Below the pieces are notes generated by a model. That model saw only the letters and a list, made by a program, of their open reading frames with translations, did no database searches and was not told where the DNA came from. Both the position numbers and the translations under genes were made by a program. A stretch of DNA of 38,731 nucleotides from NCBI RefSeq assembly GCF_000336875.1, contig NZ_AOJK01000067.1, positions 24,189-62,919 of the forward strand, read 5' to 3'. This document shows positions 2,610-34,300 of the stretch, one piece after another. The stretch is from Halorubrum californiense DSM 19288 (lineage in GTDB: Archaea > Halobacteriota > Halobacteria > Halobacteriales > Haloferacaceae). Position 1 is the first letter of the stretch. The number at the start of each line of letters is the position of its first letter.

Positions 2610-3401
2610 TCACGAGAACATCCCCCGTCGACCGTCGACCTCGTGAGTCTTGACATCATGTGCTCGGAGTGGCTCCGCTCCAGTTGCGTACGCAATCGAC
2701 TGGAACGCTGTCGTCGTCCGACCACCTTCGTCGGCCGCCATAAACGCCGGTGACCGTTCGACTTTGACCTCCGTTTCAGGGGTAAGTTCGACGCTATCGA
2801 CGGCTTCGAGTACCGCCGAATCGACATTGGTAGTCTCGCTCTCGTGTGGCGTTACCTCGAACTCGCCGAGATACGTGACCTCTGCAAGATGCTCCGAGAG
2901 GCCGAGACTCGGCGGGTAGTAGGACGTCCCATCGCAGAGTCGGTCCTGCAGTCGGCCTCGGAGATCGTCGTTCGCGAGCTGAAGGTCGACACGGTAGGCC
3001 GGTTCGACCAGCACCTCGTAGTTGTGTTGCTGGCGGAGTTCCGACGGGTCCGGCATCGAGATCCGTGCATGCCCGCGGCTGGGCATCGTCGTCATGTGCT
3101 CTTTGGCCGTCGAGAGCGTGTTCATCGGCATATTGATCGCTCGGAGCTCGTCGATCGGCTCCACCGCGACAGCCGACACGTTCTGGCTGAACGCCTCGTA
3201 GTAACTGTCTCGGTCCAGTCCGAGCATCGCGGCGACGAGGCCGGCGACGGTCGTCCGGGGAATGATCCGGTACGTCTGTTTGACGATGTTCCCCTCAACC
3301 CGTCGAAAGTGACCCCACTCTCCGCGGAGTTCGAACGAGAGACACGTCTCTGGGAGCCCGTCGCCCTCGTCGGTCCAGCTCTCAAGTGACTCTTGGGCCA
3401 T
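2610..3401 (-). CDS. cas5: Type I-B Cascade subunit Cas5
   Basis: Cas5 is the RAMP-fold subunit that caps the 5' handle of the crRNA in the I-B Cascade complex. The 263-residue product begins MAQESLESW and has the usual N-terminal strand region (CLSFELRGEWGHFRRVEGN) and a following helix (TTVAGLVAAMLGLDR), as in Cas5h proteins. Length is normal for the family. The ATG at 3401 overlaps the cas7 stop (TGATG arrangement); an in-frame GTG one codon earlier (3404) is possible but less likely. It is sandwiched between cas7 and cas3, which fixes the assignment even though Cas5 sequences diverge strongly. Confidence 0.92.
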   Translation of the reverse strand: MAQESLESWTDEGDGLPETCLSFELRGEWGHFRRVEGNIVKQTYRIIPRTTVAGLVAAMLGLDRDSYYEAFSQNVSAVAVEPIDELRAINMPMNTLSTAKEHMTTMPSRGHARISMPDPSELRQQHNYEVLVEPAYRVDLQLANDDLRGRLQDRLCDGTSYYPPSLGLSEHLAEVTYLGEFEVTPHESETTNVDSAVLEAVDSVELTPETEVKVERSPAFMAADEGGRTTTAFQSIAYATGAEPLRAHDVKTHEVDGRRGMFS

Positions 3402-4519
3402 CACTTGGGCATCGTCGCGGCAGCCTCGTCGTAGACGTCGACGACCTCGACCGCGTCGCCGACAGCCTCGCGGAGCGCATCATAGAAGCCATGCTCGCTG
3501 GGCTTGTCGCCCGCAGTGTAGACCTCATCGCCGACGGTCACGTCGAGCACGTCGCTGGCGACGACACGAACGCGGGCGATACGGTCGGCATGGCGGCCCA
3601 ACCGGGAGACGAGCTCAGTCCCATCGAGCGTGAACTCTCGGACGTTTCGGAGTTCGTCCACAGGGGCCGAGCGCTCTTCGTCGATGTCGAGATCGCGAGT
3701 GAGCCCGCCGAGGTGGAAGCTCTCGTCCTCGTACTCTACACGGAGGTAGAGTCGTGGCTCTTGGCCGACCTTGCTCCGGCTGATGGTCTGGTTCTTGATC
3801 GCGCGCCACGGCAGGGTGTCCAGTCGCTCGACGTCCGCCTCGGAGAGCTTCGTGTCAGCGGCACCATTCTCGTCGACCAACCCATGAAACGCGATGAAGC
3901 CGTACTGAATGCGGTGGTCGTCGAGGTCGAACCCACCTTGTTCCTTCCCTTCTCCAGTCGCGATGACGCTAGTGAGGCTGTTGTACTCCTCGTTCTCGGT
4001 TACGGGGTGGAGCGTCTTCGCGGGCGAGAACTGGACAGGGCCGGTAAAGTGGTCTGGGAGGTAGTCCTCGAACCCCTCGTAATTCCCCTTCATGTCGACG
4101 CTCATCGTCGCGCCGAAATACCGTACGTCGGCGCTGGCGTCGAGGAAGGTGCCAAACACCTCTTCGCGGAGTTCGGCGGCCTCGTCGTCGTCCAGATCGT
4201 CGAGATCCCAGTCGTCGGGATCCAGTTCGCGCATCCGATCGGCGAGCAGGTCTTCACGCGAGGACTGCTTGCCCGCCTCGTTTTTGACGTTCCGCACGTA
4301 GACGCCGTGGCCGTCGTCGTCTAGCTGGTCGCGGAGGTAGCGCTTCAGCCGGACGTCCGTCACGATCGCCTGCTGGGTCTCGGGATCGATCCGCGGTCGA
4401 TTTGCCCCGCTCAGGGGGTTTCCATTCGGGTTGGCGTCGACAGCGTCGTAGCCGAAGACGATCTCGGAGCGGTTCGTTACGGGGTCGTAGCTGTCGTCGG
4501 CGTATGTATCGTCAGTCAT
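3401..4519 (-). CDS. cas7: Type I-B Cascade backbone subunit Cas7 (Csh2-like)
   Basis: Cas7 forms the helical backbone of Cascade along the crRNA spacer. The 372-residue protein starts MTDDTYADDSYDPVTNRSEI, then has the family's early core strand and loop with NPNGNPLSGANRPRIDPETQ, a DVRLKRYLRDQL helix and a FGATMSVD strand near residue 140. These are typical of Csh2/DevR-type Cas7. Length is normal. Its ATG overlaps the cas8b stop by 4 bases (ATGA), so the two are translationally coupled, which suits subunits of one complex. No catalytic activity is expected. Confidence 0.95.
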   Translation of the reverse strand: MTDDTYADDSYDPVTNRSEIVFGYDAVDANPNGNPLSGANRPRIDPETQQAIVTDVRLKRYLRDQLDDDGHGVYVRNVKNEAGKQSSREDLLADRMRELDPDDWDLDDLDDDEAAELREEVFGTFLDASADVRYFGATMSVDMKGNYEGFEDYLPDHFTGPVQFSPAKTLHPVTENEEYNSLTSVIATGEGKEQGGFDLDDHRIQYGFIAFHGLVDENGAADTKLSEADVERLDTLPWRAIKNQTISRSKVGQEPRLYLRVEYEDESFHLGGLTRDLDIDEERSAPVDELRNVREFTLDGTELVSRLGRHADRIARVRVVASDVLDVTVGDEVYTAGDKPSEHGFYDALREAVGDAVEVVDVYDEAAATMPK

Positions 4520-6666
4520 GCTTCTTCCTCCTCGGTTTCGGGCTGGTCGTCGGCCTGTTCATCGTCGCTACTCGCCCAGTTGTTCATCCCATAGGCGACC
4601 CCCAGCGAGTAGTAGAACCGGAGGTCTGTCGTGTCGAGTTCCCAATCGCCGTCGATGTCGATCTGGGGAAGCGTCGTTACCAGTCGGTCGACGACTTCAC
4701 GGTACATCGTCCCGGCCATGTTGTTCTCCCGGGAGTAGACGACGTTCTTGTCGAGCACGTCGCTCGCGAGGCGTTTCAGCTTCGACTCCGTGACGGCCTT
4801 GATCGGATACTGGTCGATCAACGTCGTCGAGCGCCCCTCGCTCACTTGCTGGTAGCCGGTTACTTGACCGACCAGTGCGCCGAGGAGGAAACTGCCACGC
4901 CGTTCAGGCTGATCCTCCGCGAGCGCCGGCGTCTGTTCAAGAAACTTTTCGAGTTTCGTCTCCCGAGCCGCGGCGACGTTCCCGCCGTCAGCTCGGGCTG
5001 GTGTGTCCTGTCGCATATCTTCTGTATGGTTGTGTGTCAACTGCCGCGGCTCTGAAACCGGTTCGTACGCGTCGCGTCCAGTGAGAAGCCCCGCTTCGGC
5101 GAGCGCACAGAGCTGTGCGTACTGTGCGGAGACACGGAAGCTCGGGAACTCCTCGCCCTCGTCCTCGAGCAGTCGTTCCACGTACTCTGTGAGCACCATC
5201 TCGACATCAAGCGGTTCGTCCGAGAGCACAGCCACGAGCGCACGGATCCGGTAGTCGTCGGCGCTGGCGTCGTCGTCATCGGCCGGCGCGAACGTCTGTT
5301 CGAAGTACCAACCGGTTGCGAGGATGCTCAGCAATGCCGACTCCTCCGGAACGAAGATATCCCAGTTGTCCGGTGTCGGGAACGCGGCTCGAAGCCCCGG
5401 ACCGGGGTGGTCGGCGTCACCCTCCGCGTCGTACAGCCACGACTGGAGTACCCGCTGGTGAGCTCTAGTGAGCTCGACGGGCGAGAATAGCGTCCCGTCC
5501 ATGCTGTCGCCGAACACGTCGAAGCGCTTCGTCTGGTGTTCCATCACCGCGGCGACGTAGAACCGGAAGCGTTCTCCCACTTCCTGTAGTCGCGGGGTGT
5601 CCTGATAGCTTCGGTAGGCGCTCTCTAGCGGGCTCATCTCTCCGGCGTGTACTAGGTCGTAGAGGAGTCCGTAGAGGTCCCTCGCGTCTGCCGGACCGAC
5701 CCGCCCGAAGAAGTACGGGAGGTAGTAGACGTTCGCTCCCATCGTGTAGTAGTCGCAGGCGTCGACGAACGTACTCGCGTTCATCAGCGTCACTGCAACG
5801 TCTTCCGAGACTGGGTGCGTCCGCCACGCCTCGTCTGGATCGAACCCGGGGAACTTCTCAAGCTGCTTGCCAAGGAAGTAGTTCAGCGGATCCTCTGCTG
5901 TCCCGACAGTCGGGCCTCGATTTCCGGTCACGAGATCGGTTGCCTCACCGATGGAGTCCGTAGCCTCTCCCTTCGAGACGAGCTTCGATCGCTTGCGCGC
6001 TCGCATTGCTTCGTTGAATACGGAACTCGCCTCACCCGGAAGGAGATACTCGCCGTCAGGCTCGAGTTTGACTGCGACGGTCGTGAGCGCCGTCGTCTTG
6101 CCGTCGAGCTGTTCGTCGACGGCTGTCTCGATGCGCTCTCTAAGTCCCTCACTCTCGCCGAGTTCGGCGAGCGCGTCGACGATCCATCCGTCTTCGTGAT
6201 CGGCGACAGCCTCTTGGATCACGTCGTCAGCTGCCCACGCGGTGAGTCGTTCGTGGAGATACTCCGCGACCTTCTCTGGCTCTTTGTTCTTGCCCGTTCG
6301 GTGGGTGACACTGTGGTCAAATCCTTTTGCGGCGTTATACCACGAGTGGGCGACTGCCTTGACTTTCTCCTCGCCGTAGCTCTCGACACCGATCGGTTGG
6401 TCGGGGTCGAGGCGGGGCTTGTCTCCACTCAGATCGACGCGGAGATAGAGTAGGCTCTCGGGCTCGTCGAACAGGTCGGTCGATTTTTCCGGCGTCAGGT
6501 AGGCTGCGTACTCGCCACCTCCGGCGGTTGCAAGCGTGTATAGACGCCCGTAGACGTACTGGAGATCGCGGAGCGAGGTGATCGGTCGATCAGGCAGCTC
6601 GCTCGCCAGCTTCTCGTCGTCGCTGTAACGCTTCTCGAACGTCGACGGCTCGGGGAGCAGACTCAT
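4516..6666 (-). CDS. cas8b: Type I-B Cascade large subunit Cas8b (Csh1-like)
   Basis: Cas8b is the large subunit of I-B Cascade, needed for PAM recognition and for recruiting Cas3. The product is 716 residues, close to the usual length for haloarchaeal Cas8b, and begins MSLLPEPSTFEKRYSDDEKL. Cas8b proteins are poorly conserved and I see no catalytic motif; the call rests on size, on the N-terminal LYTLATAGGGEYAAYLTPE-type region, on the tyrosine-rich central block (VYYLPYFFGRVG) and above all on position between cas6 and cas7. It overlaps both neighbours by 4 bases (ATGA). The C-terminus is acidic (ending EEEEA), a normal halophile feature. The small subunit (Cas11) of I-B is often made from an internal start in cas8b; I could not test that here. 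Confidence 0.93.
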   Translation of the reverse strand: MSLLPEPSTFEKRYSDDEKLASELPDRPITSLRDLQYVYGRLYTLATAGGGEYAAYLTPEKSTDLFDEPESLLYLRVDLSGDKPRLDPDQPIGVESYGEEKVKAVAHSWYNAAKGFDHSVTHRTGKNKEPEKVAEYLHERLTAWAADDVIQEAVADHEDGWIVDALAELGESEGLRERIETAVDEQLDGKTTALTTVAVKLEPDGEYLLPGEASSVFNEAMRARKRSKLVSKGEATDSIGEATDLVTGNRGPTVGTAEDPLNYFLGKQLEKFPGFDPDEAWRTHPVSEDVAVTLMNASTFVDACDYYTMGANVYYLPYFFGRVGPADARDLYGLLYDLVHAGEMSPLESAYRSYQDTPRLQEVGERFRFYVAAVMEHQTKRFDVFGDSMDGTLFSPVELTRAHQRVLQSWLYDAEGDADHPGPGLRAAFPTPDNWDIFVPEESALLSILATGWYFEQTFAPADDDDASADDYRIRALVAVLSDEPLDVEMVLTEYVERLLEDEGEEFPSFRVSAQYAQLCALAEAGLLTGRDAYEPVSEPRQLTHNHTEDMRQDTPARADGGNVAAARETKLEKFLEQTPALAEDQPERRGSFLLGALVGQVTGYQQVSEGRSTTLIDQYPIKAVTESKLKRLASDVLDKNVVYSRENNMAGTMYREVVDRLVTTLPQIDIDGDWELDTTDLRFYYSLGVAYGMNNWASSDDEQADDQPETEEEEA

Positions 6667-7469
6667 CCGTGGACCTCCGCCGCGGGTTCGCCGTACGGGT
6701 TGCGCTTCTCGACCAAGTTACAGAAGCCCAATCCCAGCGCATTTCGTTCCCCAAGCCCGCAGTCCAGCGCGAGGTTGAGGTGGCGTCGATGGTCATCGTC
6801 TCGGACGGTGTAGTTGAACTGCCACTTCGAGAGCACGAAGGTTAGCTCCTGGTCTGCGGTTACCTGGAGCGGGACGGCGAACGTCTTCAGTAGCTCGTAT
6901 CCCTCGAAGAGATCGCCCTCAGTGTCGCTTGGGCCGGGAAGGTATTCCGGGCTGAACAGATCGTGTTTCTGGTCGAGATTCGCTTCGACCTGCTCGCGCA
7001 GTGGCTCGATTGTGTGTTCTGGCTGCCAATACACCGCCTCTTCGCCGGGGTTCTCAATTCCATAATCATCACAACGCCATGGTGGGATGCGCACGAGGAG
7101 TCCAGTGCCAGTTTCGATCGTTCCGCTGCTCCCCGGTTCGCCGACATCCGGTGACAGTGACGTGAGTTCGTCGATATGGAACGGCATCTGGCCGATATTG
7201 AGCTCGCGATCGGCGGTCAGGTCTTCTGCAACATCGGCCAGTAGTTGCTCTTGGGGGGCCGAAATTAGCAGAGTTCGCTCGTCCCCTTCCTGCATATCTC
7301 CCGGCGGGAAGGGGTTACTGTAATTGAATCCTGGTGGGCGGTTTTCGTCATGACACTGTTCGTACTCCGTGTCTTGTAACGCTCGCCAGATCCGACCTCG
7401 GAGCTTGTGGTGATACGCGTTGTCGTATGCGGCATCAGCCCGCGCGTGTAACCGTGCTAGTAGTCTCAC
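6663..7469 (-). CDS. cas6: CRISPR RNA endonuclease Cas6
   Basis: Cas6 cuts the repeat part of pre-crRNA and, in I-B systems, releases mature crRNA for Cascade. The 268-residue product starts from GTG with MRLLARLHARADAAYDNAYH; the His pair at residues 20-21 in a YHHKLRGR segment is a candidate catalytic histidine by analogy with other haloarchaeal Cas6 proteins. Near the C-terminus is the glycine-rich RNA-binding loop, GLGERNALGLGFC, expected of the family. It is the first gene of the five-gene minus-strand operon and lies only 29 bases from the divergent start of the restriction gene at 7499. The GTG start is chosen because the N-terminal ferredoxin-like strand begins right there. Confidence 0.93.
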   Translation of the reverse strand: MRLLARLHARADAAYDNAYHHKLRGRIWRALQDTEYEQCHDENRPPGFNYSNPFPPGDMQEGDERTLLISAPQEQLLADVAEDLTADRELNIGQMPFHIDELTSLSPDVGEPGSSGTIETGTGLLVRIPPWRCDDYGIENPGEEAVYWQPEHTIEPLREQVEANLDQKHDLFSPEYLPGPSDTEGDLFEGYELLKTFAVPLQVTADQELTFVLSKWQFNYTVRDDDHRRHLNLALDCGLGERNALGLGFCNLVEKRNPYGEPAAEVHG

Positions 7470-7510
7470 AGTGTTATGTCGATTTACCCACTTATCCTAT
7501 GGTAATTATT
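7470..7510. promoter_or_regulatory. Head-to-head start region of cas6 and the Mrr-like gene
   Basis: Only 29 bases separate the GTG of cas6 and the ATG of the Mrr-like gene. On the minus strand an AT-rich ATAATTACC lies about 32-40 bases before cas6, inside the first codons of the other gene, and could be its TATA element. On the plus strand GTTATGTCG is a weak candidate for the other direction. Any promoters here must overlap the opposite coding region. Confidence 0.35.
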
Positions 7511-8539
7511 CTTTTCGCTGAGTTCATCCGAGATGGGCACCCAATTGCGGATATTGAGTCCTACCTCAATGACGAGGATCTCGAACTGTTTCGGACAACA
7601 TCCGACGACGATCTCGTCCACGTCTGGGGGACCTCAGTAGATGGGACGTGGCGGAACGTCGAGCGCAACGACATCGCGCTCGTCTACCACGATGGTGCGT
7701 TCGTCGCCAGGGGGCAAGTCCTCCAACTCCGACACGACCCCGACCTTGCGGAGTATCTCTGGAGAGAGAACGTTGAACACGGTCGCTGGAACGAAGAAAG
7801 TCCGTGGGAGTACATGACCTTCCTCACCGATATTGAGGAAGTCGACGTCGACATTGAGGAATTCAACGAACTCGTTGGCTATGACAAGACCTACCGCCCA
7901 CAGGGATTCACCCGGGTCGCTGACAAGCGCCTCAACCAACTCTCTGGCGAGGAGTCAGTCGAGACCGCCATTGCCGACCTGACCGATGCCGGCGAACGTG
8001 TTCACCCCGTCGACGATGAAGACGACGGACCAACTCCCGACCTCGCCGACCAGCTCCAGGCGGCCAGCACAGATGGGGACGCCCACGAGGAGTTTGAGAA
8101 ACTCGTTGCGAAGGCCTTCTCCCGGCTGGGCTGTGCCGCCGACTGGATCGAAGGAGGGGGTGACACCGACGTGGAGATCCGATCTCCCGAACACGTCGTT
8201 GTCGAAGTGAAGGCCCGAGGGAACGGACGAGTCAATTCGTTGGAAGTCACCAACGTAGACAAACACCGACGACAGCGTGGAGCCGATCACGCCATCGTGG
8301 TTGCTCCAGGCTTCGCCCCGAAAGTGATCGATAATGCCGAGACGACCGAGCTGACAACAATCGCCGTCGACGATCTCGTTGAGCTCCTCGATCGCCGGGA
8401 CGAGTATGCCGTCCCACCTGAGGAGATACTAGCCCTCTTGACACGCTCTGGGGCCTTCCAAGACGACAGACTCGATCTCCTCGATGAGTACATCCAGGAC
8501 CGGATCGATGCTGGAGAAACCCTGCTTGCGGTCATCTGA
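7499..8539 (+). CDS. EVE-like/Mrr-like restriction endonuclease, likely modification-dependent
   Basis: The C-terminal half (about residues 195-300) is an Mrr-like PD-(D/E)xK nuclease domain: EEFEKLVAKAFSRLG, then GGGDTDVEI, then VVVEVKARG, which supplies the D...ExK catalytic set, followed by RQRGADHAIVVAPG. The N-terminal half (about 1-150) looks like a PUA/EVE-type fold, with VHVWGT, NDIALVYHDGAFVARGQV and YRPQGFTRV. EVE-type domains bind modified bases, so a modification-dependent restriction enzyme is the best guess. The start is ATG at 7499; upstream in-frame codons lie opposite cas6 and are rejected. The gene is 346 codons, next to CRISPR-Cas, fitting a defence role. The nuclease call is solid; the EVE call is inference from pattern only. 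Confidence 0.75.
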   Translation: MVIILFAEFIRDGHPIADIESYLNDEDLELFRTTSDDDLVHVWGTSVDGTWRNVERNDIALVYHDGAFVARGQVLQLRHDPDLAEYLWRENVEHGRWNEESPWEYMTFLTDIEEVDVDIEEFNELVGYDKTYRPQGFTRVADKRLNQLSGEESVETAIADLTDAGERVHPVDDEDDGPTPDLADQLQAASTDGDAHEEFEKLVAKAFSRLGCAADWIEGGGDTDVEIRSPEHVVVEVKARGNGRVNSLEVTNVDKHRRQRGADHAIVVAPGFAPKVIDNAETTELTTIAVDDLVELLDRRDEYAVPPEEILALLTRSGAFQDDRLDLLDEYIQDRIDAGETLLAVI

Positions 8540-9663: not shown

Positions 9664-9783
9664 AGCTTCGGAAACAGTGGAGTGACTGCGTTATATAAAG
9701 GATCGTAGCTCCGGAAATGGTGGTGTGTGTATTGCTTATAAGTAGGTGAGCTTCGGACGCTTCGGAAGCTACGGAAACGGTGG
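9664..9783 (-). repeat. Right origin repeats (3 copies), overlapping the orc promoter
   Basis: Copies in the AGCTCCGGAAACGGTGG orientation are at 9664-9680 (AGCTTCGGAAACAGTGG), 9707-9723 (AGCTCCGGAAATGGTGG) and 9767-9783 (AGCTACGGAAACGGTGG). Half-copies (AGCTTCGGA) lie at about 9749-9768. They interleave with TATA-like elements, so the Orc protein may control its own gene. Confidence 0.85.
9691..9744 (+). promoter_or_regulatory. Candidate promoters of orc1/cdc6
   Basis: Two archaeal TATA-like elements are visible, TTATATAAAG at 9691-9700 and CTTATAAGTA at 9735-9744. They are 115 and 71 bases before the chosen ATG at 9815. Both are bracketed by origin repeats, suggesting autoregulation by repeat binding. 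Confidence 0.5.
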
Positions 9784-9814
9784 TTTTATCATATCTCCCG
9801 TGTGGCAGACTATC

Positions 9815-11071
9815 ATGGGAATGTTCCAACGGGATCGCCAGGTGTTCGCTGACGCCGAACCCCTCGACGATTCCTACGAGCCCGAGGATATCCGTGAACG
9901 GGACGAGGAACTCGAAAAATATCAGCGTGCTCTCCAGCCGATCATCGATAACCGCCCGACGTCGAACATCTTCTTGTACGGGAAGACAGGAACGGGAAAG
10001 ACCGTCGCGACGAAGTATATGCTGTCGCACTTGGAGAACGATACTGCCGAATACGACGATGTCCATCTCTCGACGGTTTGGGTCAGCTGCGAGAACCTCT
10101 CCTCGTCCTACCAAGTTGCTGTCGCCTTAGTCAACGAACTCCGTAACAGCCAGGATAAAGACCGTATCAGTGCTACCGGCTACTCCCAGCAACGAGTGTT
10201 CGATATTCTCTATGAAGAACTCGATGCGCTGGGTGGTACTGTTGTGATCGTTCTTGACGAGATCGACAATATCGGCAACTCCGACGACATCCTCTACGGG
10301 CTCCCTCGTGCACGATCGAACGGCTACGTCGACGATGTTCGCCCAGTGATCGTCGGCATCAGTAACGACTTCCAGTTCAGGGACAATCTCTCGCCAAAAG
10401 TCAAGGACACGCTCGCGGAAAAAGAGATCCTCTTCCCACCATACGACGCGAATCAGCTCCGCTCGATCCTCAACCCACGTGCCGAGAAAGCGTTCCACGA
10501 TGATGTGTTATCCGATGATGCTGTCCCGCTCTGTGCGGCATTTGCTGCTCAAGATACTGGATCAGCTCGACAGGCAATCCGACTACTTCGTGAAGCTGGC
10601 GAGCTTGCCCAAGCGGCTGATTCCGACACGGTAACTGAGGAGCACGTCCGTGAGGCGCAAGACGAACTCGAAAAGAACCAACTCTACGAGGGGATGCAGG
10701 AACTCACGACCCAAGGGCATGCTGTCCTCTGTGCGCTTGCGTACCACCAGGCGCTCGATGAAGTTCCTGTTCGGTCCCGTGATCTCTACGAGCGATACGT
10801 GAAAATCTGTAGCCATCTCGACGCTGATAGCGTGAGTGAACGTCGTGTCCGTGACCACCTCTCGGATATGAATATGCTCGGACTGATCAACCTCTTTGAA
10901 CGGAACGAGGGGCTCTCAGCTGGTCGGTATCACGAATACGAGCTTGATGTCCCGTTGAAATCAGTACTTGAAGTCCTCCTCGATACGACACGTTTCGAAG
11001 AACTCGCGAACATCATCCAGTCGACAGCTGACGATAACAATCTGCTTCAGTCGGATATCTCCGACTATTGA
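9815..11071 (+). CDS. orc: Orc1/Cdc6-family replication initiator
   Basis: This AAA+ initiator binds the origin repeats and loads the replicative helicase. The 418-residue product has Walker A YGKTGTGKT (about residue 60), Walker B VVIVLDEIDN (about 145), sensor-type region IVGISND, and a C-terminal winged helix (about 310-400: LCALAYHQAL, then VSERRVRDHLSDMNMLGLI). The frame is open from a GTG at 9746, but that would place two origin repeats inside the gene and add an unlikely N-terminus; ATG 9815 (MGMFQRDRQVF) gives the usual Orc start. Length is typical. Repeats on both sides mark it as the initiator for this element. A second Orc or RepH is not seen. Confidence 0.93.
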   Translation: MGMFQRDRQVFADAEPLDDSYEPEDIRERDEELEKYQRALQPIIDNRPTSNIFLYGKTGTGKTVATKYMLSHLENDTAEYDDVHLSTVWVSCENLSSSYQVAVALVNELRNSQDKDRISATGYSQQRVFDILYEELDALGGTVVIVLDEIDNIGNSDDILYGLPRARSNGYVDDVRPVIVGISNDFQFRDNLSPKVKDTLAEKEILFPPYDANQLRSILNPRAEKAFHDDVLSDDAVPLCAAFAAQDTGSARQAIRLLREAGELAQAADSDTVTEEHVREAQDELEKNQLYEGMQELTTQGHAVLCALAYHQALDEVPVRSRDLYERYVKICSHLDADSVSERRVRDHLSDMNMLGLINLFERNEGLSAGRYHEYELDVPLKSVLEVLLDTTRFEELANIIQSTADDNNLLQSDISDY

Positions 11072-11835: not shown

Positions 11836-12227
11836 AAGGACTGACGCTCATGTGTAGCACATTGTTGATGAATAGCCATCTTGCGATCCTGCGGTGCGTT
11901 GAGTAGATTGAGAATATACGACTTAGCAGCTCTGACGGCTAACTACTGAATGAGGTCCACCCCCGGAGACTGTATCAACAATCTCCTACCGAAGAGCGTC
12001 TCCGAAAGTGGTGAGCATATTACCATCTCAATCAGGCAGACGGAACTCGCGAAACGACCACTGTCACCCCACACCTAGGCAGTACTGGGGACCTTGGAAA
12101 GATCCTCTGAGGATAGGCTCAGAAATTAACCAACAAGCTGGCGCTTTCGTTGTTTCTGTTGGTTAATCACGCAGAGAGCTATCACGCACGCCCGTATGCT
12201 TTTGTCCCGCAGTACTGAATCGCCAGT
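11836..12227. other. Gene-free stretch before the 12228 gene
   Basis: No gene seen. It holds a degenerate origin repeat at 12000-12015 and the inverted repeat at 12125-12167. The stretch TATGCTTTTG at 12194-12203, about 25-34 bases before the next ATG, may be a weak TATA element. Confidence 0.45.
12125..12167. promoter_or_regulatory. Operator-like inverted repeat ATTAACCAACA-N21-TGTTGGTTAAT
   Basis: The arms (12125-12135 and 12157-12167) are 11 bp and perfectly complementary, with 21 bases between them. The same arms, 10 of 11 bases, occur at 35737-35778 with a 22-base spacer. Arm centres are 32 bases apart, about three helical turns, suiting a dimeric DNA-binding protein. The site ends 60 bases before the ATG at 12228. 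Confidence 0.6.
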
Positions 12228-13211
12228 ATGTCGTTTCGAGTGACGTGGGACAACCTCCTCGACAACGTGGAGGAACTTCCAGCAGACGCTACACTCCTCA
12301 CTCCGCTCTCTCAGAAGCCGTTTCACATCACCGACGTCCAGCAACACCGAGTGCTGATCGAGTATCAGGCTGACAGTGAGACCGTCCCGCTCCAGCGAGA
12401 GCAGTTTGAGACGCTGTTCCAGCGCGTTGACCATGCGGCTGGAGCGTTCGATCTCGATCGCCTCCCACCCGGAGCTGAACCGTATGCCACCGTCATGAGT
12501 CTTCATGCGCGATTTACGATCGACGACCGGGACGGCACCCTCTCTGAAAGCGAGACGCCAACAGCGTCGCCACTCGTCGATGCGCACACGGTCGAACACG
12601 ACGATAGCCCACGAGAAGAGCCCGACATCTCGGTGTACGCAGACGCGCTCCTGTTGATCGATACACTCGAGCGACATGATGTGACATCTCTCACCGAACT
12701 AGACGTGCCGACGCTTGTGAACCTCTACACATTGCTTTCTGATGTCCAGCGCAACGCCAACGATCTTCGACAAGACGTCCGTGGCGTCTTGCTTGACCGT
12801 CTCCATCACGACCAACCTGTAAGTGGGCAATACGGGTCCGTTCAACGGACTGTCCGCCAAAACCGGACACTCAAAAATGACGAAGAAGTCCTTGAGCTAC
12901 TGGAATCAGAAGGAATCGACCCCGAGCAAGTGATGAGTGTTGATACAAGCAAACTCGATGACGCGTTGGAGGTAACGTCACTCTCTGAATCTGATGTATA
13001 TGACATCGAGGAGAGTGAGTATGTTCGGAAAGCAGACGTCGATGACGAGATGAAGGAAAGCCGTCTCCAAGGGCTCAAAGACCAGTTGGCTGGAGCCGAC
13101 GAAGACACAACCGAGCTCCAAGCCGAGATCGAAGAACTGGAGCAGCGTATCACTGAACTCACCAGTTTTGACCCCGGCACATCATTCCATACTCGTTCAA
13201 CTGGTGGATAG
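12228..13211 (+). CDS. Hypothetical haloarchaeal plasmid protein (327 aa)
   Basis: I do not recognise a named family. The N-terminal region (about 1-110) reads like a compact beta-rich domain, MSFRVTWDNLLDNVEELPAD then PLSQKPFHITDVQQHRVLIEYQ. A variable acidic linker follows (about 105-135). The middle (about 135-195) is helical with DLRQDVRGVLLDRL, and the C-terminal part (about 215-310) is rich in Glu/Asp and ends in a likely coiled coil (AEIEELEQRITELTSF). No Cys, membrane segment or enzyme motif is visible. It lies alone, downstream of the origin and of an inverted-repeat operator, and is followed by hairpins, so it is probably its own transcript. A role in plasmid replication or maintenance is only a guess. 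Confidence 0.75.
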   Translation: MSFRVTWDNLLDNVEELPADATLLTPLSQKPFHITDVQQHRVLIEYQADSETVPLQREQFETLFQRVDHAAGAFDLDRLPPGAEPYATVMSLHARFTIDDRDGTLSESETPTASPLVDAHTVEHDDSPREEPDISVYADALLLIDTLERHDVTSLTELDVPTLVNLYTLLSDVQRNANDLRQDVRGVLLDRLHHDQPVSGQYGSVQRTVRQNRTLKNDEEVLELLESEGIDPEQVMSVDTSKLDDALEVTSLSESDVYDIEESEYVRKADVDDEMKESRLQGLKDQLAGADEDTTELQAEIEELEQRITELTSFDPGTSFHTRSTGG

Positions 13212-14453: not shown

Positions 14454-14801
14454 CTACTCGCTTCCTGGCTTCCCGATGTACTCCGATTTCATCGTCCCGT
14501 TTTCACGATAGTAACGATAGAGATACGGGCCGTGTATATCCGCGGGATCTCCGCTAGCGCACTTACAGCTATCGTCGCCACAGGTGACTTTCTCTTTGAT
14601 GACGGTCCCGCTTCCTGCGCTATCGGACTCTTCGACGGGTTCGGCAGTCTCGGGAAGCTCGTCGGTGTCAACCGACTGGTCGCGATACTCGATGAGCGCC
14701 TCGACGTAGTTCCGTATCTCATGGAGTGTTTCCGTGTCCTGTTTGGGGAGCCCCTCCGCGAGATACTTCGGGAGCGAGGTGGGTGGTGACGGCTGCTCCA
14801 T
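14454..14801 (-). CDS. DUF6788-like small protein with Cys motif
   Basis: The 115-residue product has an N-terminal helical half (MEQPSPPTSLPKYLAEGLPK) and a C-terminal half with VTCGDDSCKCASGDP, then HGPYLYRYYRENG and YIGKPGSE. The Cys-x4-Cys-x-Cys plus HGPY pattern is that of small DUF6788-type proteins often carried on haloarchaeal mobile elements, probably metal-binding. Function is unknown. It is transcribed away from the transfer operon and its start is flanked by a 9-bp inverted repeat (14803-14850). Confidence 0.72.
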   Translation of the reverse strand: MEQPSPPTSLPKYLAEGLPKQDTETLHEIRNYVEALIEYRDQSVDTDELPETAEPVEESDSAGSGTVIKEKVTCGDDSCKCASGDPADIHGPYLYRYYRENGTMKSEYIGKPGSE

Positions 14802-14802
14802 A

Positions 14803-14850
14803 CCTTATGTAACAATCGGAGCCGCGTTAGCGTTCGGGTGCTACATAAGG
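14803..14850. promoter_or_regulatory. Inverted repeat CCTTATGTA-N30-TACATAAGG at the DUF6788-like start
   Basis: The two 9-bp arms are at 14803-14811 and 14842-14850, directly before the ATG at 14801 on the minus strand. The near arm nearly touches the start codon. It could be an operator for the minus-strand gene. A mobile-element end is also possible. Confidence 0.5.
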
Positions 14851-18319: not shown

Positions 18320-19435
18320 ATGGTTGATCTAATCGACGTCGTCCTTGAGGGTTTCAAAGAGGTAGTCGATTGGATTGTCGGCCTCTTCATGGACGGCCTG
18401 CGTTCCGGCTATGAGACCCTCACCGAGGAGATGTTCGGGACACCAACGCCGGAGACGGACGGTGCATTCGTCTTCGGAGAGCCCAGTAATGCTCCGTGGC
18501 CGTCGATTCAGGACGCGCTTGTCGGTGGTGAGATCATGTTGATCTCGCTGCTCCTCCTCGTGATGTGCGTTCAGGGCCGTCACACGATCCGTATATTCAA
18601 TATTGGAAGTGCATACGAGGCCAGGCGCACCAAGAAAACTGCTTGGGTCGGCGCGTTTCTGATTATCAGCTGGTACTGGGTCAGTATTCTTGGACTCTAC
18701 ATTGTGGACGGGTTCACTATTGCGCTGATGCCGAGTCTGGGTTCTCTGGGCGATGCGATGCTCAATTTGCTCGAAGTCTCAATCACAAACCCTGGGCTTT
18801 CACTCGTATTCGCACTTATAGGAGGACTCTCGATGTGGGCTTTGGAGGCCCTCTACTACATTCGCGAAGTCCTGCTCTACGTCTACGTGTATGGAATGCC
18901 GATTGCGTTCGCGCTGGCCTACGGAAACATCCCCGTCCTCTCGGATATCGCGATGGGCTTCAGCAAAAAATTCGTCCCGTTAGCGGTCCTGCCCCTGCCT
19001 GCAGCAGTGGTGTTCAAAGGATACGACTTGCTGTACTCTCAGAACGCCATCGCTCCGAGTAGTCCGTTTTTGCGGTATCTAGTCGCGGCATCGCTCCCAC
19101 TGATCGCACTTTACCTGACTTGGAAGACGTTCAAATTCGCGACTCCACTGACCGCGAAGGTTCTCGGTGGTGCGACGAAGGGAGCGGCACTCATCGGCGG
19201 TGTCGCCGCTGGGGCCTACATCGGCGGCGCCGGCGTCGCGACGACTGCTGCCCGGTGGGGACCGAAGGCCGCAGCCGGCCATGCCGTCGCACAGAAAGCT
19301 GCTTCTCGAGGCGGTCATGGAGAGAGTGGCGATAGTATGCCTTCGTACCGACGCACCGAGAACGACCCCGGTGGTACTACGTCGGATACAGCGGGCGAGG
19401 AACGCGGAATGAACTTTGATAGAGGGATCCACTAA
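18320..19435 (+). CDS. Polytopic membrane protein, VirB6/TrbL-like
   Basis: The 371-residue product has about six or seven hydrophobic helices, for example IMLISLLLLVMCV, TAWVGAFLIISWYWVSILGL, LVFALIGGLSMWALEALYYI, LLYVYVYGMPIAFALAYG, FVPLAVLPLPAAVVF and LVAASLPLIALYLTW. A Gly/Ala-rich hydrophobic stretch (GGATKGAALIGGVAAGAYIG) precedes a polar tail. Several TM helices plus a Gly/Ala-rich tail, two bases before a VirB3/VirB4-type gene, is the pattern of VirB6/TrbL channel proteins. The family cannot be proved by eye. Confidence 0.68.
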   Translation: MVDLIDVVLEGFKEVVDWIVGLFMDGLRSGYETLTEEMFGTPTPETDGAFVFGEPSNAPWPSIQDALVGGEIMLISLLLLVMCVQGRHTIRIFNIGSAYEARRTKKTAWVGAFLIISWYWVSILGLYIVDGFTIALMPSLGSLGDAMLNLLEVSITNPGLSLVFALIGGLSMWALEALYYIREVLLYVYVYGMPIAFALAYGNIPVLSDIAMGFSKKFVPLAVLPLPAAVVFKGYDLLYSQNAIAPSSPFLRYLVAASLPLIALYLTWKTFKFATPLTAKVLGGATKGAALIGGVAAGAYIGGAGVATTAARWGPKAAAGHAVAQKAASRGGHGESGDSMPSYRRTENDPGGTTSDTAGEERGMNFDRGIH

Positions 19436-19437
19436 CA

Positions 19438-20559
19438 ATGTCCACCGATCAAGACGCAGCCGCACGGCGCATCATGGACCAGTTCGGTGAGGAGAGCCGC
19501 ATTCCCTACCTCAACATCGAGGAAGGCGACGTTGGCGTCCTCATCGCCTTCCCGATCGTCGGCCTGTTCATTGCCGGCCTCACCGGCATCGAATCACTCG
19601 CCCTCCCGTTTGTCGCAGGGGGCTTCGGGTTCGGCGTCGCGATCGTCTACGTCTCGCCCGACCACCTCAACGCGTGGACGTGGACGAAAGACGTCTATCG
19701 CTACGTCAAACGCCCCCAGATCACGTTCAGTTCCCCAGAGGAGGCCAACAGTAGTACGAACGAGACAGAGCGCAACGAGGGCGGGCTCGCGAACTACACG
19801 CCGTTCAAGCCCGACGAACGAACGCAGGACCTTACGAACATCGAACGGGCGTGGCCGGGGGCTGGCGCGATCCAGCGCGCCGACGGCACGATGGAGGCGT
19901 TCATCGAGATCGACCCGGACAACATGGACTTCGCGATGTCCGACGACTGGGCCCAGCTCCAAGACGCCGGCGAGGAGTTCGCCAACAAGGAACTCGACTC
20001 CAAGCTCAAACTCCACGCGACAACCCGCTCATTTCCGGTGGAGCAGATTACCGAGAACATCGAAGACCGCCTGAACGACGAGGACGTCAAAGAAAACCCG
20101 ATCTTCCGGGAACTCCTCGAGGAGTATCGGGAGACGCGGCCGAAAGAGATGCGCGACCGTGGAATCCAGCAGGTGCGGTACTACATCGGCGTCCAAGTCA
20201 CCCAGTTGGAGGTCTATGACCGCTTCCGAGACGAGGGGACACCGGCCGAGAAGCTGACGCAGTTCCCCGTCATCGGGTTCCTCTTCAACCCGTTCGTGAC
20301 CCGCCGAGAGGACCTCACCGACGTCGAGCGCCGCGCACAGATGTTCGAGAAGCTGGATAGCCGAGTCAACGACGTGCGGTCGGAGTTCATCCAGCAGGCC
20401 TCGGGCTGGTCCGCCCGCCGGCTCAGCACGGTCGAACTCTTCGTGTTGAATATGGACTTCTGGAACGGCCGCGAACACGACTACGACAACGCGGAGAGCG
20501 TCGTTCGCGAACAACCGATCATCGGCCACTCGCGCCGGGAGGATGCCCACGATGCGTAA
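19438..20559 (+). CDS. VirB3-like membrane protein with VirB4-N-like soluble domain
   Basis: Residues about 28-70 hold two close TM helices (VGVLIAFPIVGLFIAG and ALPFVAGGFGFGVAIVYVS) followed by WTWTKDVYRYVKRP, like VirB3/PrgI-type proteins. The remaining 280 residues are soluble and look like the N-terminal domain of VirB4: a substrate-neutral alpha/beta region with GTMEAFIEIDPDNMDFAMSD and RYYIGVQVTQ. Overlap of 17 bases with the VirB4 ATPase gene fits a split of functions that are one protein elsewhere. A fusion of VirB3 with part of VirB4 is the best reading. Confidence 0.65.
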   Translation: MSTDQDAAARRIMDQFGEESRIPYLNIEEGDVGVLIAFPIVGLFIAGLTGIESLALPFVAGGFGFGVAIVYVSPDHLNAWTWTKDVYRYVKRPQITFSSPEEANSSTNETERNEGGLANYTPFKPDERTQDLTNIERAWPGAGAIQRADGTMEAFIEIDPDNMDFAMSDDWAQLQDAGEEFANKELDSKLKLHATTRSFPVEQITENIEDRLNDEDVKENPIFRELLEEYRETRPKEMRDRGIQQVRYYIGVQVTQLEVYDRFRDEGTPAEKLTQFPVIGFLFNPFVTRREDLTDVERRAQMFEKLDSRVNDVRSEFIQQASGWSARRLSTVELFVLNMDFWNGREHDYDNAESVVREQPIIGHSRREDAHDA

Positions 20560-22777
20560 CCCCGTCCTCCAGACGGGCAGCGGAGCCTTCGCCCAGCTTA
20601 CGGAGTGGCTCACGAATCCGACCTCAGCCGAGGGTGCGGCCCTCTACATCCTGCTCGCGGTACTGGTGGGAATCAGCGGGAAATTCCTCTGGGACCGGTA
20701 CACCGAAGACGACGAGGAAGAGGTCGAGTTCTCGGACCTGCTCGACGAGGAGACCATCGAACAGGGCGCGGCCGAACGCCAACTCCTCGACGACATTGCC
20801 GAGTCGCATAAAACGGTGACCGCGCCGGCGGCGATCGAGTGGGAAACGCGTGCGGCACGGGTCGGCGAACAGTGGACGACGACACTGTACATCGCTGACT
20901 ACCCGGACTACCCCAACGACGGCTATCTCTCCGAGCTCTTCGAGATGACCGACGTACAGTTCGACCTGACGGCCCACATCACGCCAAAGAATCAGGAGCG
21001 GGCCCGGAACGAACTGCAGGACATCGCTGACGACCTCCAGGTCGACGCTGACCTCGAACAGAGTGTGCGGAGTGCCTACTTGCAGGAACGTGCTAACGAG
21101 GCCGCCGCGACGTACAAGGCCGTCGAGAACGGCGCGAACGTCTTCGACCAAGGGATGTTCATCACGGTCAGAGCCGACGAGAAGGACGACCTCCAGGACG
21201 CTGTCCAGAAGGTCAAGAGCGCGCTCCGTGACGACCCCGCGAACCTCACCCCGAAGACGGCGATCTGTCGGCAGGACCTCGCCCTTCAGTCCGCCGCGCC
21301 CATCGGCGACAACGAGTTCGGCCGGACGTCGATTGCGCTTGGCGGCGCCGTCGGCGCGTTGCTCTCCTCGCCGCACAACGCGACAATCCTCGAAGAGGGC
21401 GGCGTCGAGTTCGGGATTCACAAGGACAACCAGAGCCCGGTCGTCATCGACCCGTTCGCTCGGGACAACGGGTACGCGATGTTCACCGTCGGCGATACCG
21501 GGTCGGGGAAGTCGTTCAGTTCGAAGCAGAACTTCATCCGCTCCATCGAACAGAGCAAAGACCGCATCGGCATCATCCTCGAACCGCTGAACAACTGGGC
21601 CGGCGTCTCGGAGGCGCTCGATGCCAAACGGATCACGGTCGGCGGGACCCTCGGCCTGAATCCGCTGGAGATCCGGGAGACGCCTGAGCACGTCCAACGG
21701 GCGATGGGTGAGGACGCCAGCCCGTTCAACGAGAAGCTTGACGACGCGATGAGCTTCCTCACGAATTTCTTCGCGCTCCGGGGCATCTCGCTTGGCGACC
21801 GCCGGACGACACTGGAACTCGGGCTCAAGCGGGCGTACAAGCGCAACGGGATCACCGACGACATCTCGACGCACGACAACCCGAGCCCGACGATTCGGGA
21901 TATGATGGACGTCTTCGAGGATATGGTCAACGACCCCGAGGAGTTCGTCGTCCGGTCCGATGAGGAGGCTGGGAAGATCAAGGAGGACGCGACGTGGCTC
22001 CTCGACCAGCTCCGTCCATTCGAGGCGGACGGCCGCCACGGGAATCTCGGCCAAGAGTCGGATTTCGACATCCGAGACGAGAAAGTCATCTACCTCGATC
22101 TCGCCCAGCAGGAGGGTAGCGTCGACAGCAGCACGGCGCTGACGATGCAGTTGCTCATCTCGCTGGTGTACGAGCGAGCGAAGGTCTCGGACAAGGAGGT
22201 CGTGTTCTACATCGACGAGGCCCGCTACATCATGCAGGACGCCGCGAGCCTGGCGTTCCTCGAGACGGTGTTCCGCCACCACCGGCATCACGACCTCTCG
22301 ATCCGGCTGGTCACCCAGACGGTTGACGAGTTCTTCGAGCACGCCGAATCTGAGGCGATCCTTGACCAGTGTGCGGTCAAGCAGTTCCATCGCCTCGACG
22401 GGATGGACGAGGAGTGGGCCGACGAGTTCGGCTTGAACTACGCGCAGATGCGGTTCGTTCAGGACGCTGTCCCCGGCAACGAGGACGCCGGCTTCTCCGA
22501 GGCGCTGGTGGGCGTCGACGGCGAGTGGCGCGGCATCCAGGTCAAACCGATGCCCAAAGAGAAGCAGGTCATCGACTTCGACCCGACCTCCCAAGTTCGG
22601 TCCTCGCTGCCCGGCGCCGGCGATGAGGCCGTCGATACCGAGATGCAGGATTTCCAGGAGGAGCTCAACCATCGAGCAACGAACGGAACGAACGAAACGA
22701 GCGAACTGAACGAGGAATCAGACGCCGTCGAAGCTGAGCCAGACGGCGGGTCTACGGAGGGGACCAACGATGGCTGA
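20543..22777 (+). CDS. virB4: VirB4/TraC-family conjugation ATPase
   Basis: This is the secretion ATPase that powers assembly of the transfer machine. The 744-residue protein has an N-terminal TM helix (about 31-50, AALYILLAVLVGISGKFLW), a linking domain, then a HerA/FtsK-type core: Walker A VGDTGSGKS (about residue 317), Walker B VVFYIDEARY (about 553), a following RHHRHHDLSIRLVTQTVDEF sensor region, and an acidic tail. An alternative ATG nine bases downstream (20552) is possible. It overlaps the upstream gene by 17 bases and the next by 8. Strongly GC-rich with no sign of damage. Confidence 0.9.
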   Translation: MPTMRNPVLQTGSGAFAQLTEWLTNPTSAEGAALYILLAVLVGISGKFLWDRYTEDDEEEVEFSDLLDEETIEQGAAERQLLDDIAESHKTVTAPAAIEWETRAARVGEQWTTTLYIADYPDYPNDGYLSELFEMTDVQFDLTAHITPKNQERARNELQDIADDLQVDADLEQSVRSAYLQERANEAAATYKAVENGANVFDQGMFITVRADEKDDLQDAVQKVKSALRDDPANLTPKTAICRQDLALQSAAPIGDNEFGRTSIALGGAVGALLSSPHNATILEEGGVEFGIHKDNQSPVVIDPFARDNGYAMFTVGDTGSGKSFSSKQNFIRSIEQSKDRIGIILEPLNNWAGVSEALDAKRITVGGTLGLNPLEIRETPEHVQRAMGEDASPFNEKLDDAMSFLTNFFALRGISLGDRRTTLELGLKRAYKRNGITDDISTHDNPSPTIRDMMDVFEDMVNDPEEFVVRSDEEAGKIKEDATWLLDQLRPFEADGRHGNLGQESDFDIRDEKVIYLDLAQQEGSVDSSTALTMQLLISLVYERAKVSDKEVVFYIDEARYIMQDAASLAFLETVFRHHRHHDLSIRLVTQTVDEFFEHAESEAILDQCAVKQFHRLDGMDEEWADEFGLNYAQMRFVQDAVPGNEDAGFSEALVGVDGEWRGIQVKPMPKEKQVIDFDPTSQVRSSLPGAGDEAVDTEMQDFQEELNHRATNGTNETSELNEESDAVEAEPDGGSTEGTNDG

Positions 22778-25700
22778 GTACCTGCGCGTCACGCCGACAT
22801 CCGAACGACTCGATCCGGAGAGTATCCCCCGAGTTCTCGACAGCCTCCACAAACTGACCATGCCTGGCTCGTCGGGCCTCGGGGCGAAGCTGAACCCGCT
22901 CCACAGTGAGACACCACCTCGATTCGAGTTCCTCGCGATCAGCGATGGTCCGGACGACCCGGTGGAGTTCTTCTACGGGGCCGACGCGCACCTCGATACG
23001 CTTGAGAAACGCCTCCGCTCCATCTATCCGGCCACGTTTGACATCGAGCGCATCGACGTCGACGTTGCCGCCCGGCTTATCCAGCCAGTCGAGTTCACAC
23101 CGCAGGAATTCGTCGAACACTACGAGGCCGGGCGGCTGCAGTACGAGTTTGGCCCGGCAGAACAGTACGACATCGTCGACGAGGAATCAGTGGGGGCCGA
23201 GACAGCCGAAGCAGACCCCGTCGTCGACGGCGGTACGGCATCCACGAGAGTCCCCGATCATCATGTTACTATCGGGGACTCAGCCCTCGAACTAGCGCCG
23301 TCCGATGCACTGCCGGACGACGACGAAGAGCGACGAGCCATCGAGAAGCCAACGATGACACCGGCAGGAACGATTCTAGCTCGCCCGGCCCAAGACGCTG
23401 TCTCGCCGCTCGGTGTCCGGTGGTGTGGCTCCGCGTCACGGAAGCAGGACTGGATGACCTCGCTGACGCCGTTCACGGCAGAGGAAACGAACGGCGACCT
23501 CTCGTCCGTCGACGAACCGGGCGCAGCGCTGGCGTCGCTGATCGACCATCTGATGGAGGCGACAGCGCCGACCGCGTTCCAGGTCGTCTTCCAGCGGCGT
23601 GCCAGCTGGCAGTCCGACGCGGAGGTGCGGAAAGAGGACCTCGTCGACGGCCGCGACACGTTCTTCCAAGAAGTCGTCGGGTCGTTGCTCGAAGTCGAGG
23701 AGCAGCGGAGCGATCAGGACGACCGGCAGCTCAGCGAGTCCGTCGAGAAGCGGATCGAGTACATCGACGCGAAGAACGCCAAACGGTCGTTCACGGTCAA
23801 CGTTCGGGCAGTCGGCGTCCCCATCGACGATACTCACGACGACCTCGATGGCCGGATGGACTCGCTCCTCCCGGTCTTCGACCCGCTTGATGGACCGTTC
23901 TACGAGGTCGAGGGGCAACGCCTCCGGGACAGCGGCTTCCGTGAGAAAACGAAGGAGAAGAAGGCACGGGCCGCGCTTCAACGCCTCCTCAATCGCGAGT
24001 TGACGACGGGTCGGGGGAAGACCCGCCCCGAGTTGGTCCTCTGTGGGACGGAGCTCGCGAACTTCGTCCTCGTCCCCTCTTCCGAACAGTTGACCGTCGA
24101 AGGGACGCGGGGAACCAGAGCCGAACAGCAGAGCCGCAATCCGCTTCCGTGGCCGAATCCCGACCTGATCCAGCAGTTCCAGGACGGGATGGAGATCGGG
24201 TACGCCCTCGACGAGAACGGTGAGCCACGGCCGGACCCGATCAGGATCCCGCCGGACCTGTTGCCGACGCATTACGGGCGGTTCGCGTCGACTGGTGGCG
24301 GGAAGTCGAAGGCCATCATCAACGACGCGCTCTCGCTCCGCGAGTCGACTGGTGGCCCCGTGGTCCTCGTCGACCCGAAGGGGGACGGAATGTGTGAGAA
24401 CTACCTGCGCTGCCACTACGATCGGTTCGACGGTCTCGACGACGTCTACCACTTCCGCGTGCCGGAGACCATCCCCGCCTTCTCCTTCTTCGACATCCGT
24501 CCCGCGCTCGAGGCCGGTCGCAACCGGGAGGACGCGATTCAGGACAAGGTCGACCACTTCCACGACATCCTCCGGATGATTATGGGCCGCGAACAGTACG
24601 GTCAGGCGTTCGTCGCGAACGAAATTCTGAGCTACCTGATCAAGGCGCTGTTCGACGAGGAGTATGGGAGTGACGTGTTCGGGCTGGATGACCTCTTTGC
24701 CGCCGCGCTTCGGATGCAACGCGAGCAGACGATTCCCCCGGTCTCAGCGGACAACCAGAACATCGAGGAATCGCTGACGCGCCACTTCGCGAAGGACAAC
24801 CACCAGTTCCAGGTATCGATGGACGCGGTCGGGAACCGCCTCGACAAGCTCAAAGAGGACGCGCACCTCCGGCGGATCTTCAGCCACGTCCCTGAGCAAA
24901 ACGACGCCGGCGAGTACGTCGACAACCGCTTCGACTTCCGCGAGTTCCTCGATGAAGATGCCACCATCATCTTCGATCTGGGCGACCTTCGCCCGGAGGC
25001 ACAGCGAGCGATTACGCTGCTCCTGTTGAGTAACCTCTGGGACGCCGTCCAGGTGCGCCGACGCGACGGCCAAACCGATTACGAGAAGCTCACGAACCTC
25101 ATCATCGAGGAGGCCGCACCGGTGGCGTCGACGAAGCTCGTCTCCGAGCAGCTACTGCCGCAGGGCCGGTCGTTCGGCCTGAGTATGGGGCTCGTGATGC
25201 AGTTCCCAGAGCAGGTGCGGAACCGGAACGAGCGAGCCTACGACGAGGTGTTGAACAACATCAAGACGAAGCTCATCGGCAACATCTCGATCGAGCGCGA
25301 CCTCGCAGAGTCGCTTGCCCACGAGGACCTCAGCCCGACCGAACTCCGTAACCGAATCAACACGCTTCCGAGCGGTGAATGGATCGCCCAGCTCCCGAGT
25401 CCCTCGTTCGGAGAGACTGGGCCGCCGCCGTTTTCACTGAAACCGCTCCCGATTGCGCCGGGGCATCCAGAAAGCGACCAGCCGCTCACAGAGCCCCAGG
25501 AAGACCATTTCAAGTCCGTGTCCAGGCCACGGATGGTCGAGCAGACACAAGCCCAGTATGGGCTAGCAGAGGCGACTGAGTCGAACACTGCTCCGGAGGA
25601 GACTGGCTGGGGTAGTACGGGAGCCGACACGACAGGCTCGACTGCCGACGGCGATACAGCGACCGACCCGACGCAATCCGCGTTCATCAGTGAATCGACA

Positions 25701-30476: not shown

Positions 30477-30486
30477 ATCAGCTCTA

Positions 30487-30496
30487 GCTTATACAA
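30487..30496 (-). promoter_or_regulatory. TATA-like element of arsR2-arsM
   Basis: On the minus strand this reads TTGTATAAGC and is within GCTT-GATTGTAT-AAGC, a short inverted repeat that could be the ArsR operator. A closely similar GTATAAGC is found before arsD (near 33571-33578). Confidence 0.45.
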
Positions 30497-30662
30497 TCAA
30501 GCACTAATACGTTGCCCTCGAAAAAGACACTTCCTCCGATGTTCACAGACACTCCTCAATGACCCTCAAGCTCTGACGAACCACCGCGAGGAAACAAAGA
30601 AAGCCGAGTCCGTGATCTGTTTTGCTGGTCGAGAAGCCTTGATCGGAGAGCGTGTGCCTGGT

Positions 30663-34198: not shown

Positions 34199-34246
34199 GA
34201 CAACGCCGCACGAGGACACTTGGCAAGTCTATTGAGGAATTTGGTG

Positions 34247-34257: not shown

Positions 34258-34300
34258 ACTCATACGAGGCCTAAAGACCGCGACAAAGAATCGAATAAGT

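Follow-up and report, generated by a model that had tools for sequence, protein, structure and literature searches.

In the MatP/matS, Noc/NBS, and SlmA/SBS systems, a single protein organizes DNA through palindromes that are dispersed over a large region. The arrangement that we describe here is alike in that one protein, predicted to be of the DUF6788 family, would serve palindromes dispersed over a large region. It differs in that the proteins are unrelated, that it is plasmid- or virus-borne, and that its sites are bipartite, with a 21 to 24 bp spacer and a promoter-bracketing copy that probably mediates self-repression.

ParB-parS and the small centromere-binding proteins of the ParG and Omega type likewise rely on a small, autoregulated, site-specific DNA binder (a prediction in the case of DUF6788) that is carried by the replicon near replication genes and has repeated cognate palindromes outside promoters. 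However, DUF6788 proteins do not match ParB or RHH in sequence, their sites are replicon-wide instead of clustered, coupling to ParA is inconsistent, and a role in maintenance is here a proposed one. Of the features that mark plasmid partition (ParABS/CBP), we found neither a constant ParA partner nor a ParB, RHH, or HTH fold.

The ORB repeats bound by Orc1/Cdc6 are, like the present sites, Orc-linked repeats in haloarchaeal replicons. ORBs cluster at origins and are tied to an Orc paralogue, whereas DUF6788 sites lie replicon-wide over tens to hundreds of kb, have a class that follows the DUF6788 clade, and also occur in a cyanobacterium, which is not known to have Orc. It is distribution and class, rather than a base-by-base comparison, that set the two kinds of repeat apart.

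Among viruses, the homologue is ChaoS9_240/phiH1_250, an entry given as uncharacterized within the region that also has parA and repH (PMC6471424, PMC6210493). ChaoS9_240 (clade A, below) and phiH1_250 share the lysogeny/plasmid (L) region of related viruses with the RepR repressor of phiH1/phiCh1, but RepR is another gene, phiH1_270 (PMC6471424, PMC6210493), and identity with it was rejected. We found no paper on DUF6788 or this motif in haloarchaea in the open-access literature, where absence proves no novelty.

A near-invariant palindrome is scattered over haloarchaeal plasmids and viruses

The stretch of DNA under analysis (the window) comprises 38,731 nt of Halorubrum californiense DSM 19288, contig NZ_AOJK01000067.1, positions 24,189 to 62,919. 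It contains the following sites and neighboring genes:

12126 to 12166, unstranded: dispersed site 1, TTAACCAACA-N21-TGTTGGTTAA, 61 bp 5′ of the 12228 gene
12228 to 13211, + strand: conserved plasmid/virus gene 3′ of site 1 (phrog_35116, no assigned function); a neighbor and at most a candidate target
35287 to 35727, + strand: hypothetical gene, its end 9 bp short of site 2
35737 to 35778, unstranded: dispersed site 2, TTAACCAACA-N22-TGTTGGTTAA, 9 bp past the 35287 stop, with the 35945 gene 166 bp farther on
35945 to 36235, + strand: small hypothetical gene 3′ of site 2

A preliminary description of the window had reported the same arms with nearly equal spacers at two places, and both are exact, with spacers of 21 and 22 bp; the coordinates it gave for the first, 12125 to 12167, comprise exact site 1 plus one extra A/T pair. 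Its view that chance recurrence is very improbable agrees with our finding of no match to the arm-pair pattern in 100 dinucleotide shuffles. The two sites, 23.6 kb apart, are indeed both present, but they do not form a complete set: the assembly holds 15 exact sites on 9 contigs, or 22 when arm position 10 (the last base) may be A or G. Eight of these 22 lie on the 118-kb contig of the window, two of them within the window. Sites also occur in 62 of 97 genomes of haloarchaeal relatives (1–29 copies each; a reversed-pattern control gave 0 everywhere). The proposed plasmid-wide spread holds, with sites across the whole replicon. When 84,980 prokaryote genomes were scanned, the matches listed were almost only Halobacteria, often plasmids, and a search of IMG/VR returned 53 stretches with the pattern. 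Site density was 14 to 69 per Mb on four secondary replicons that were counted, and main chromosomes were nearly without sites (1 in 2.96 Mb in one genome, G016; 0 among the matches listed in another, G030).

We then asked what is conserved. The spacer measured 20 to 23 bp in 211 of 230 unique sites (loci fetched from public collections), while no conservation of spacer sequence was seen across 210 unique sites and flanks were likewise unconserved between unrelated sites. Arms with imperfections were rare, the main change being A to G at position 10. Because spacers and flanks are unconserved, spacer length is held at 20 to 23 bp, and imperfect arms are rare, the conserved feature is the arms plus their distance, centre to centre three helical turns. 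The preliminary description had reasoned that many copies unrelated to promoters would mean a mobile repeat. The copies are indeed numerous, intergenic, and on mobile replicons, as a MITE or att site copied around plasmids would be, but spacers and flanks are unrelated between sites and only arms and spacing are kept. Because the spacers are unrelated, a copied repeat is a most improbable source of the sites. The pair in the window consists instead of copies of a near-invariant sequence scattered over haloarchaeal plasmids and viruses and is not a two-site operator.

Around the window sites, the position of site 1 at 61 bp 5′ of 12228-family homologues is repeated in two further loci (L019 and L128), and homologues of the 35945 gene in other genomes have a site at 166 to 221 bp in most cases. 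Within the same genome, a relative of site 2 lies at C52:12825-12866; its spacer is similar, and another site abuts it. Neither window site covers a core promoter position. As a separate observation, the two abutting sites on that contig (G000:C52:12778-12866; one G-armed, one A-armed) lie 5′ of a block resembling the 35945 region of the window.

The window also carries the following genes:

3401 to 4519: Type I-B CRISPR effector Cas7b
4516 to 6666: Type I-B CRISPR effector Cas8b
7334 to 8539: Mrr-type nuclease gene
9746 to 11071, + strand: Orc1/Cdc6-type initiator gene (Cdc6_lid 1.8e-25, Cdc6_C 1.3e-20)
18320 to 19435: TrbL/VirB6, in a conjugation-like module (18320 to 28995)
20543 to 22777: VirB4-like ATPase (weak match), same module
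22770 to 26594: large protein, same module
26591 to 27475: primase-like gene, same module
31207 to 33141: ArsA ATPase (Pfam-confirmed), within an arsenic-resistance block (29279 to 34729)

The Cas7b/Cas8b, Mrr-type nuclease, and orc1/cdc6 genes lie close together. ArsD-, ArsR-, methyltransferase-, and phosphatase-like genes of the arsenic-resistance block were identified by eye. At 36620 to 37716 (+), a winged-helix (TrmB/DUF7437) gene overlaps a gene for a small PIN-domain-like protein without Pfam match, which is a possible toxin-antitoxin or regulator pair.

The arms bracket the putative promoter of a DUF6788-like gene

The commonest gene adjoining the sites encodes a DUF6788-like protein of ∼107 aa (consensus ...KATITIKEINDNRYYYWQWREG...), with the site mostly 14 bp before the ATG. 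This gene, referred to as clade A herein, accounts for 53 of 271 unique sites, and the distance from site to ATG was 14 or 16 bp at 41 of the 53 promoters. Directly inside the left arm, the core element CTAW of AAACTATGG was present at 46 of the 53 clade-A promoters versus 10 of 402 spacer readings elsewhere; AAACTATGG is a putative promoter element. Sites occur in each of the 50 genomes that have clade A, as compared to 12 of 47 without it, those 12 with 1 to 4 copies each (Fisher P 2e-16). The same co-occurrence was found inside the genus (39 of 39 with clade A versus 5 of 13 without).

We use the term DUF6788-like for clade A because none of 12 members matched Pfam PF20586. Alignment of clade A to clades B to G by hhalign nonetheless gave a probability of 98.6% (E 6e-16, 98 columns), and by this profile comparison clade A is a diverged, Pfam-invisible DUF6788 clade. 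Two AlphaFold models (mean pLDDT 74 and 64) both have two helices and, after them, a sheet of three strands, at moderate confidence. Foldseek with the first model returned no significant PDB match and no DNA-binding fold, a sequence search of the PDB gave no significant match for the DUF6788-like protein, and a Pfam search revealed no DNA-binding domain in window or clade-A DUF6788 proteins.

Clade A alone is present in 232 plasmid records. An orc/cdc6 gene lies near the clade-A gene in 41 of 51 cases and adjoins it directly in 35, and pNRC200 likewise has the two side by side; the initiator gene of the window (9746 to 11071) is of this same type. The clade-A gene of the window's contig lies ∼36 kb past the right end of the window (C67:98976-99296), with its own site at 98919-98959. 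A ParA-like gene occurs in 5 of the 51 neighborhoods, and ParA is also found near DUF6788 in virus ChaoS9, on plasmid 1 of Halalkalicoccus jeotgali, and on a plasmid of Leptolyngbya. Bacterial DUF6788 relatives adjoin RepA, RepL, or ParA genes. In Halobacterium salinarum pNRC200 (L294, 2458 and 3977), the clade-A operator seems to be split, with arms 1.5 kb apart, as would follow from insertion of an element between the arm and the promoter element. In G030:C3, a self-type site lies ∼1.1 kb away from its gene.

Since both arms bracket the core promoter of the protein's own gene, DUF6788 is likely, to judge from this anatomy, to repress itself. Two protein copies, or two dimers, would occupy the arms, which lie three helical turns from centre to centre.

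Other DUF6788 clades have arm classes of their own

The window itself encodes a DUF6788 protein of a different clade, B, with a palindrome at its start:

14454 to 14801, − strand: DUF6788 protein, clade B (CxxxCxC...HGPYLYRYYRENG), 115 aa (PF20586 E 4.6e-9)
14803 to 14850, unstranded: clade-B palindrome CCTTATGTAACA-N24-TGCTACATAAGG, reaching to 1 bp before the start codon of that gene

This protein scored 36.8 bits against PF20586 (cut-off 27.2), and the profile was matched by 10 of 11 diverse clade B to G members with E up to 0.01. The clade-B palindromes, including that of the 14454-14801 gene, form the class TTATGTAACA-N24. Further classes at the same place and in the same frame are TTACCAAACA-N22, TTACCCCACA-N21, and TTGTGCAACA-N23, and cyanobacterial plasmids have the class CTTGTGTAAC. 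As read from these sequences, the DUF6788 clades have the common arm frame TTANNNAACA, each clade with its own arm sequence. The palindrome went beyond single-base shuffles in 16 of 21 non-redundant members outside clade A. Protein similarity correlated with arm identity (Mantel r 0.53, P 0.0002, with arm classes assigned by hand).

We searched for dispersed copies of the other arm classes using a generic pattern that did not demand symmetry. One genome (G070) has 24 dispersed sites, all of the TTGTGCAACA class (one-base variants allowed), a single one of them outside secondary replicons, and another (G094) has 33 dispersed sites of this class. In G061, the contig that carries the clade-C gene has 3 TTACCAAACA sites, and G014 has the TTAACCAACA class only. 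A separate search gave 3 TTATGTAACA sites in G060. On the Haloquadratum plasmid PL100, 3 TTATGTAACA sites accompany the clade-B gene, and the rest of that genome is without any. Leptolyngbya plasmid2 bears 3 CTTGTGTAAC palindromes, one at the DUF6788 promoter and two in convergent gaps, and the Leptolyngbya boryana DUF6788 gene follows the same plan as clade A, with TACAAT between the arms. Our searches found only the promoter palindrome for clade B in the window's genus, for clade D, and for clade C in G082. No CTTGTGTAAC copies were found in about half of Leptolyngbya plasmid3 or in 2.5 kb around the DUF6788 gene of plasmid1, which has a different, longer-spaced repeat that failed the shuffle test. 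The regions upstream of DUF6788 in Rhodothermus, Tunicatimonas, and Methanothermobacter had no clear palindrome, that of Rhodothermus containing a single CTTACACAAGG. The TTGTGCAACA spacers of G070 and G094 share recurring CGCCTTTGTGAGAAAGG-like and TCGCTTCTTGGATGCGA-like stretches, unlike clade-A spacers.

The computation establishes the sites, their distribution, and their link to DUF6788 clades. Because clade A co-occurs with its palindrome and other clades have their own, likewise dispersed palindromes, DUF6788 is very probably the cognate binder. The main evidence is that the arm class switches with the clade independently in G070, G094, G061, PL100, and Leptolyngbya plasmid2. As counterpoints, the 12 genomes with 1 to 4 sites lack clade A, and the protein models are only moderate, with no significant DNA-binding fold by Foldseek. 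Another regulator could bind the sites and control DUF6788 merely among other genes, and a MarR-like gene is indeed divergent beside ∼20 of 51 clade-A genes. Most clade-A genes are without one, however, the arm class switches with the DUF6788 clade in different genera, and the same arrangement exists in a cyanobacterium, all of which makes such a regulator highly improbable. The preliminary description had named the winged-helix protein at 36620 among the regulators to test for binding; this candidate is unsupported and almost certainly wrong because the arm class switches with the DUF6788 clade.

Dispersed sites avoid core promoters

A trained gene caller, which recovered 44 of 46 annotated stops, allowed us to place 201 non-self sites, 96.5% of which are intergenic (29% expected). 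Convergent gaps hold 19.6% of them (16.2% expected), as in random intergenic DNA, and divergent gaps 14.9% (21.1% expected); on viral contigs, 27% are in convergent gaps (9% expected). The last 40 bp before start codons are avoided (6 observed versus 41 expected), whereas 61 sites lie 40 to 100 bp 5′ of starts as compared to 41 in random gap positions. Within their own gaps, sites are enriched 40 to 200 bp 5′ of starts. Among annotated replicons, 3 of 7 non-self sites on the H. jeotgali plasmid are in convergent gaps, sites on plasmids NZ_CP098416 and pHAR02 mostly follow a stop codon and lie 5′ of the gene that comes after, and one site of virus ChaoS9 is in the convergent gap where orc1 ends. 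Promoter proximity is present at DUF6788's own gene; elsewhere core promoters are avoided, orientation is random, and the 40 to 100 bp upstream interval is enriched.

Positions just past stop codons are also favored (55 versus 29 expected), as they would be if the palindrome were a 10-bp RNA stem that terminates transcription past genes. Such a hairpin would have a 21-nt loop, though, the arms are near-invariant, compensatory pairs are few among the imperfect sites (3 of 27), and the same sequence brackets the promoter element at DUF6788 genes, leaving this explanation very little room. Separately, of 198 genes that end toward a TTAACCAACA site, 23 take the TAA of their stop codon from the TTAA of the arm.

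The preliminary description had proposed one regulator linking both window sites in a regulon of neighboring genes. Its first part, a single sequence-specific protein, is very probable; away from the DUF6788 gene itself, however, the sites do not look like promoter operators. A reading in which DUF6788 uses the dispersed sites as operators to activate or repress adjacent genes is favored by the autoregulatory geometry at its own gene, the excess at 40 to 100 bp, and the constant 61 bp of the 12228 family in three loci. Against this, the core promoter is avoided, convergent gaps are undepleted, divergent gaps are unenriched, and among the 402 spacer readings away from the DUF6788 promoters only 10 have the promoter element. 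Intergenic placement (96%), avoidance of core promoters, and lack of orientation bias make a classical regulon unlikely. Sites kept clear of transcription fit these data better than operators, but the 40 to 100 bp excess gives room for a partial transcriptional role.

Proposed role of DUF6788 and its sites

Taken together, we favor, with reasonable though not strong confidence, an explanation in which the palindrome is the site of the ∼107-aa DUF6788 protein, which represses its own gene and whose other sites serve replicon upkeep. Genes for the predicted binder are carried on plasmids and secondary chromosomes of haloarchaea and by some viruses. The remaining sites, both window sites included, are intergenic, replicon-wide, and away from core promoters, and would serve partition, DNA organization, or copy-number sensing by titration instead of switching neighboring genes. 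A maintenance role is suggested because sites are dense on secondary replicons, clade-A genes adjoin orc/cdc6, and bacterial relatives lie by RepA, RepL, or ParA; between maintenance and a regulon, we judge the balance to be about even. Partition, DNA organization, and dosage sensing are inseparable on these data.

One specific version has the dispersed sites act as decoys that soak up the self-repressor, such that DUF6788 output reports replicon dosage to the adjacent orc/cdc6. The self-repression geometry, the orc adjacency, and an intergenic placement free of promoter bias agree with this, and there is a parallel in Haloarcula hispanica, where an ORB-rich region is reported to exert negative control on oriC2, likely through titration of Cdc6E (PMC3936714). 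We saw no sign of DUF6788 acting on Orc or an origin, however, and the near-invariance of the arms exceeds what decoys need, so that titration alone seems rather improbable.

With DUF6788 as the probable binder, the family gains a testable function, namely sequence-specific, self-repressing DNA binding, with recognition sequences named for several clades. More tentatively, DUF6788 and its dispersed palindromes might constitute an undescribed replicon-maintenance system of archaeal megaplasmids and proviruses and of some bacterial plasmids, in which the code TTA-NNN-AACA separates co-resident replicons; if so, the system would be centromere-like, DNA-organizing, or dosage-sensing. Clade-specific arms would then be a marker for replicons sharing a maintenance system. 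If the sites do maintain the replicon, they would give a way into the segregation or organization of megaplasmids and secondary chromosomes in haloarchaea.
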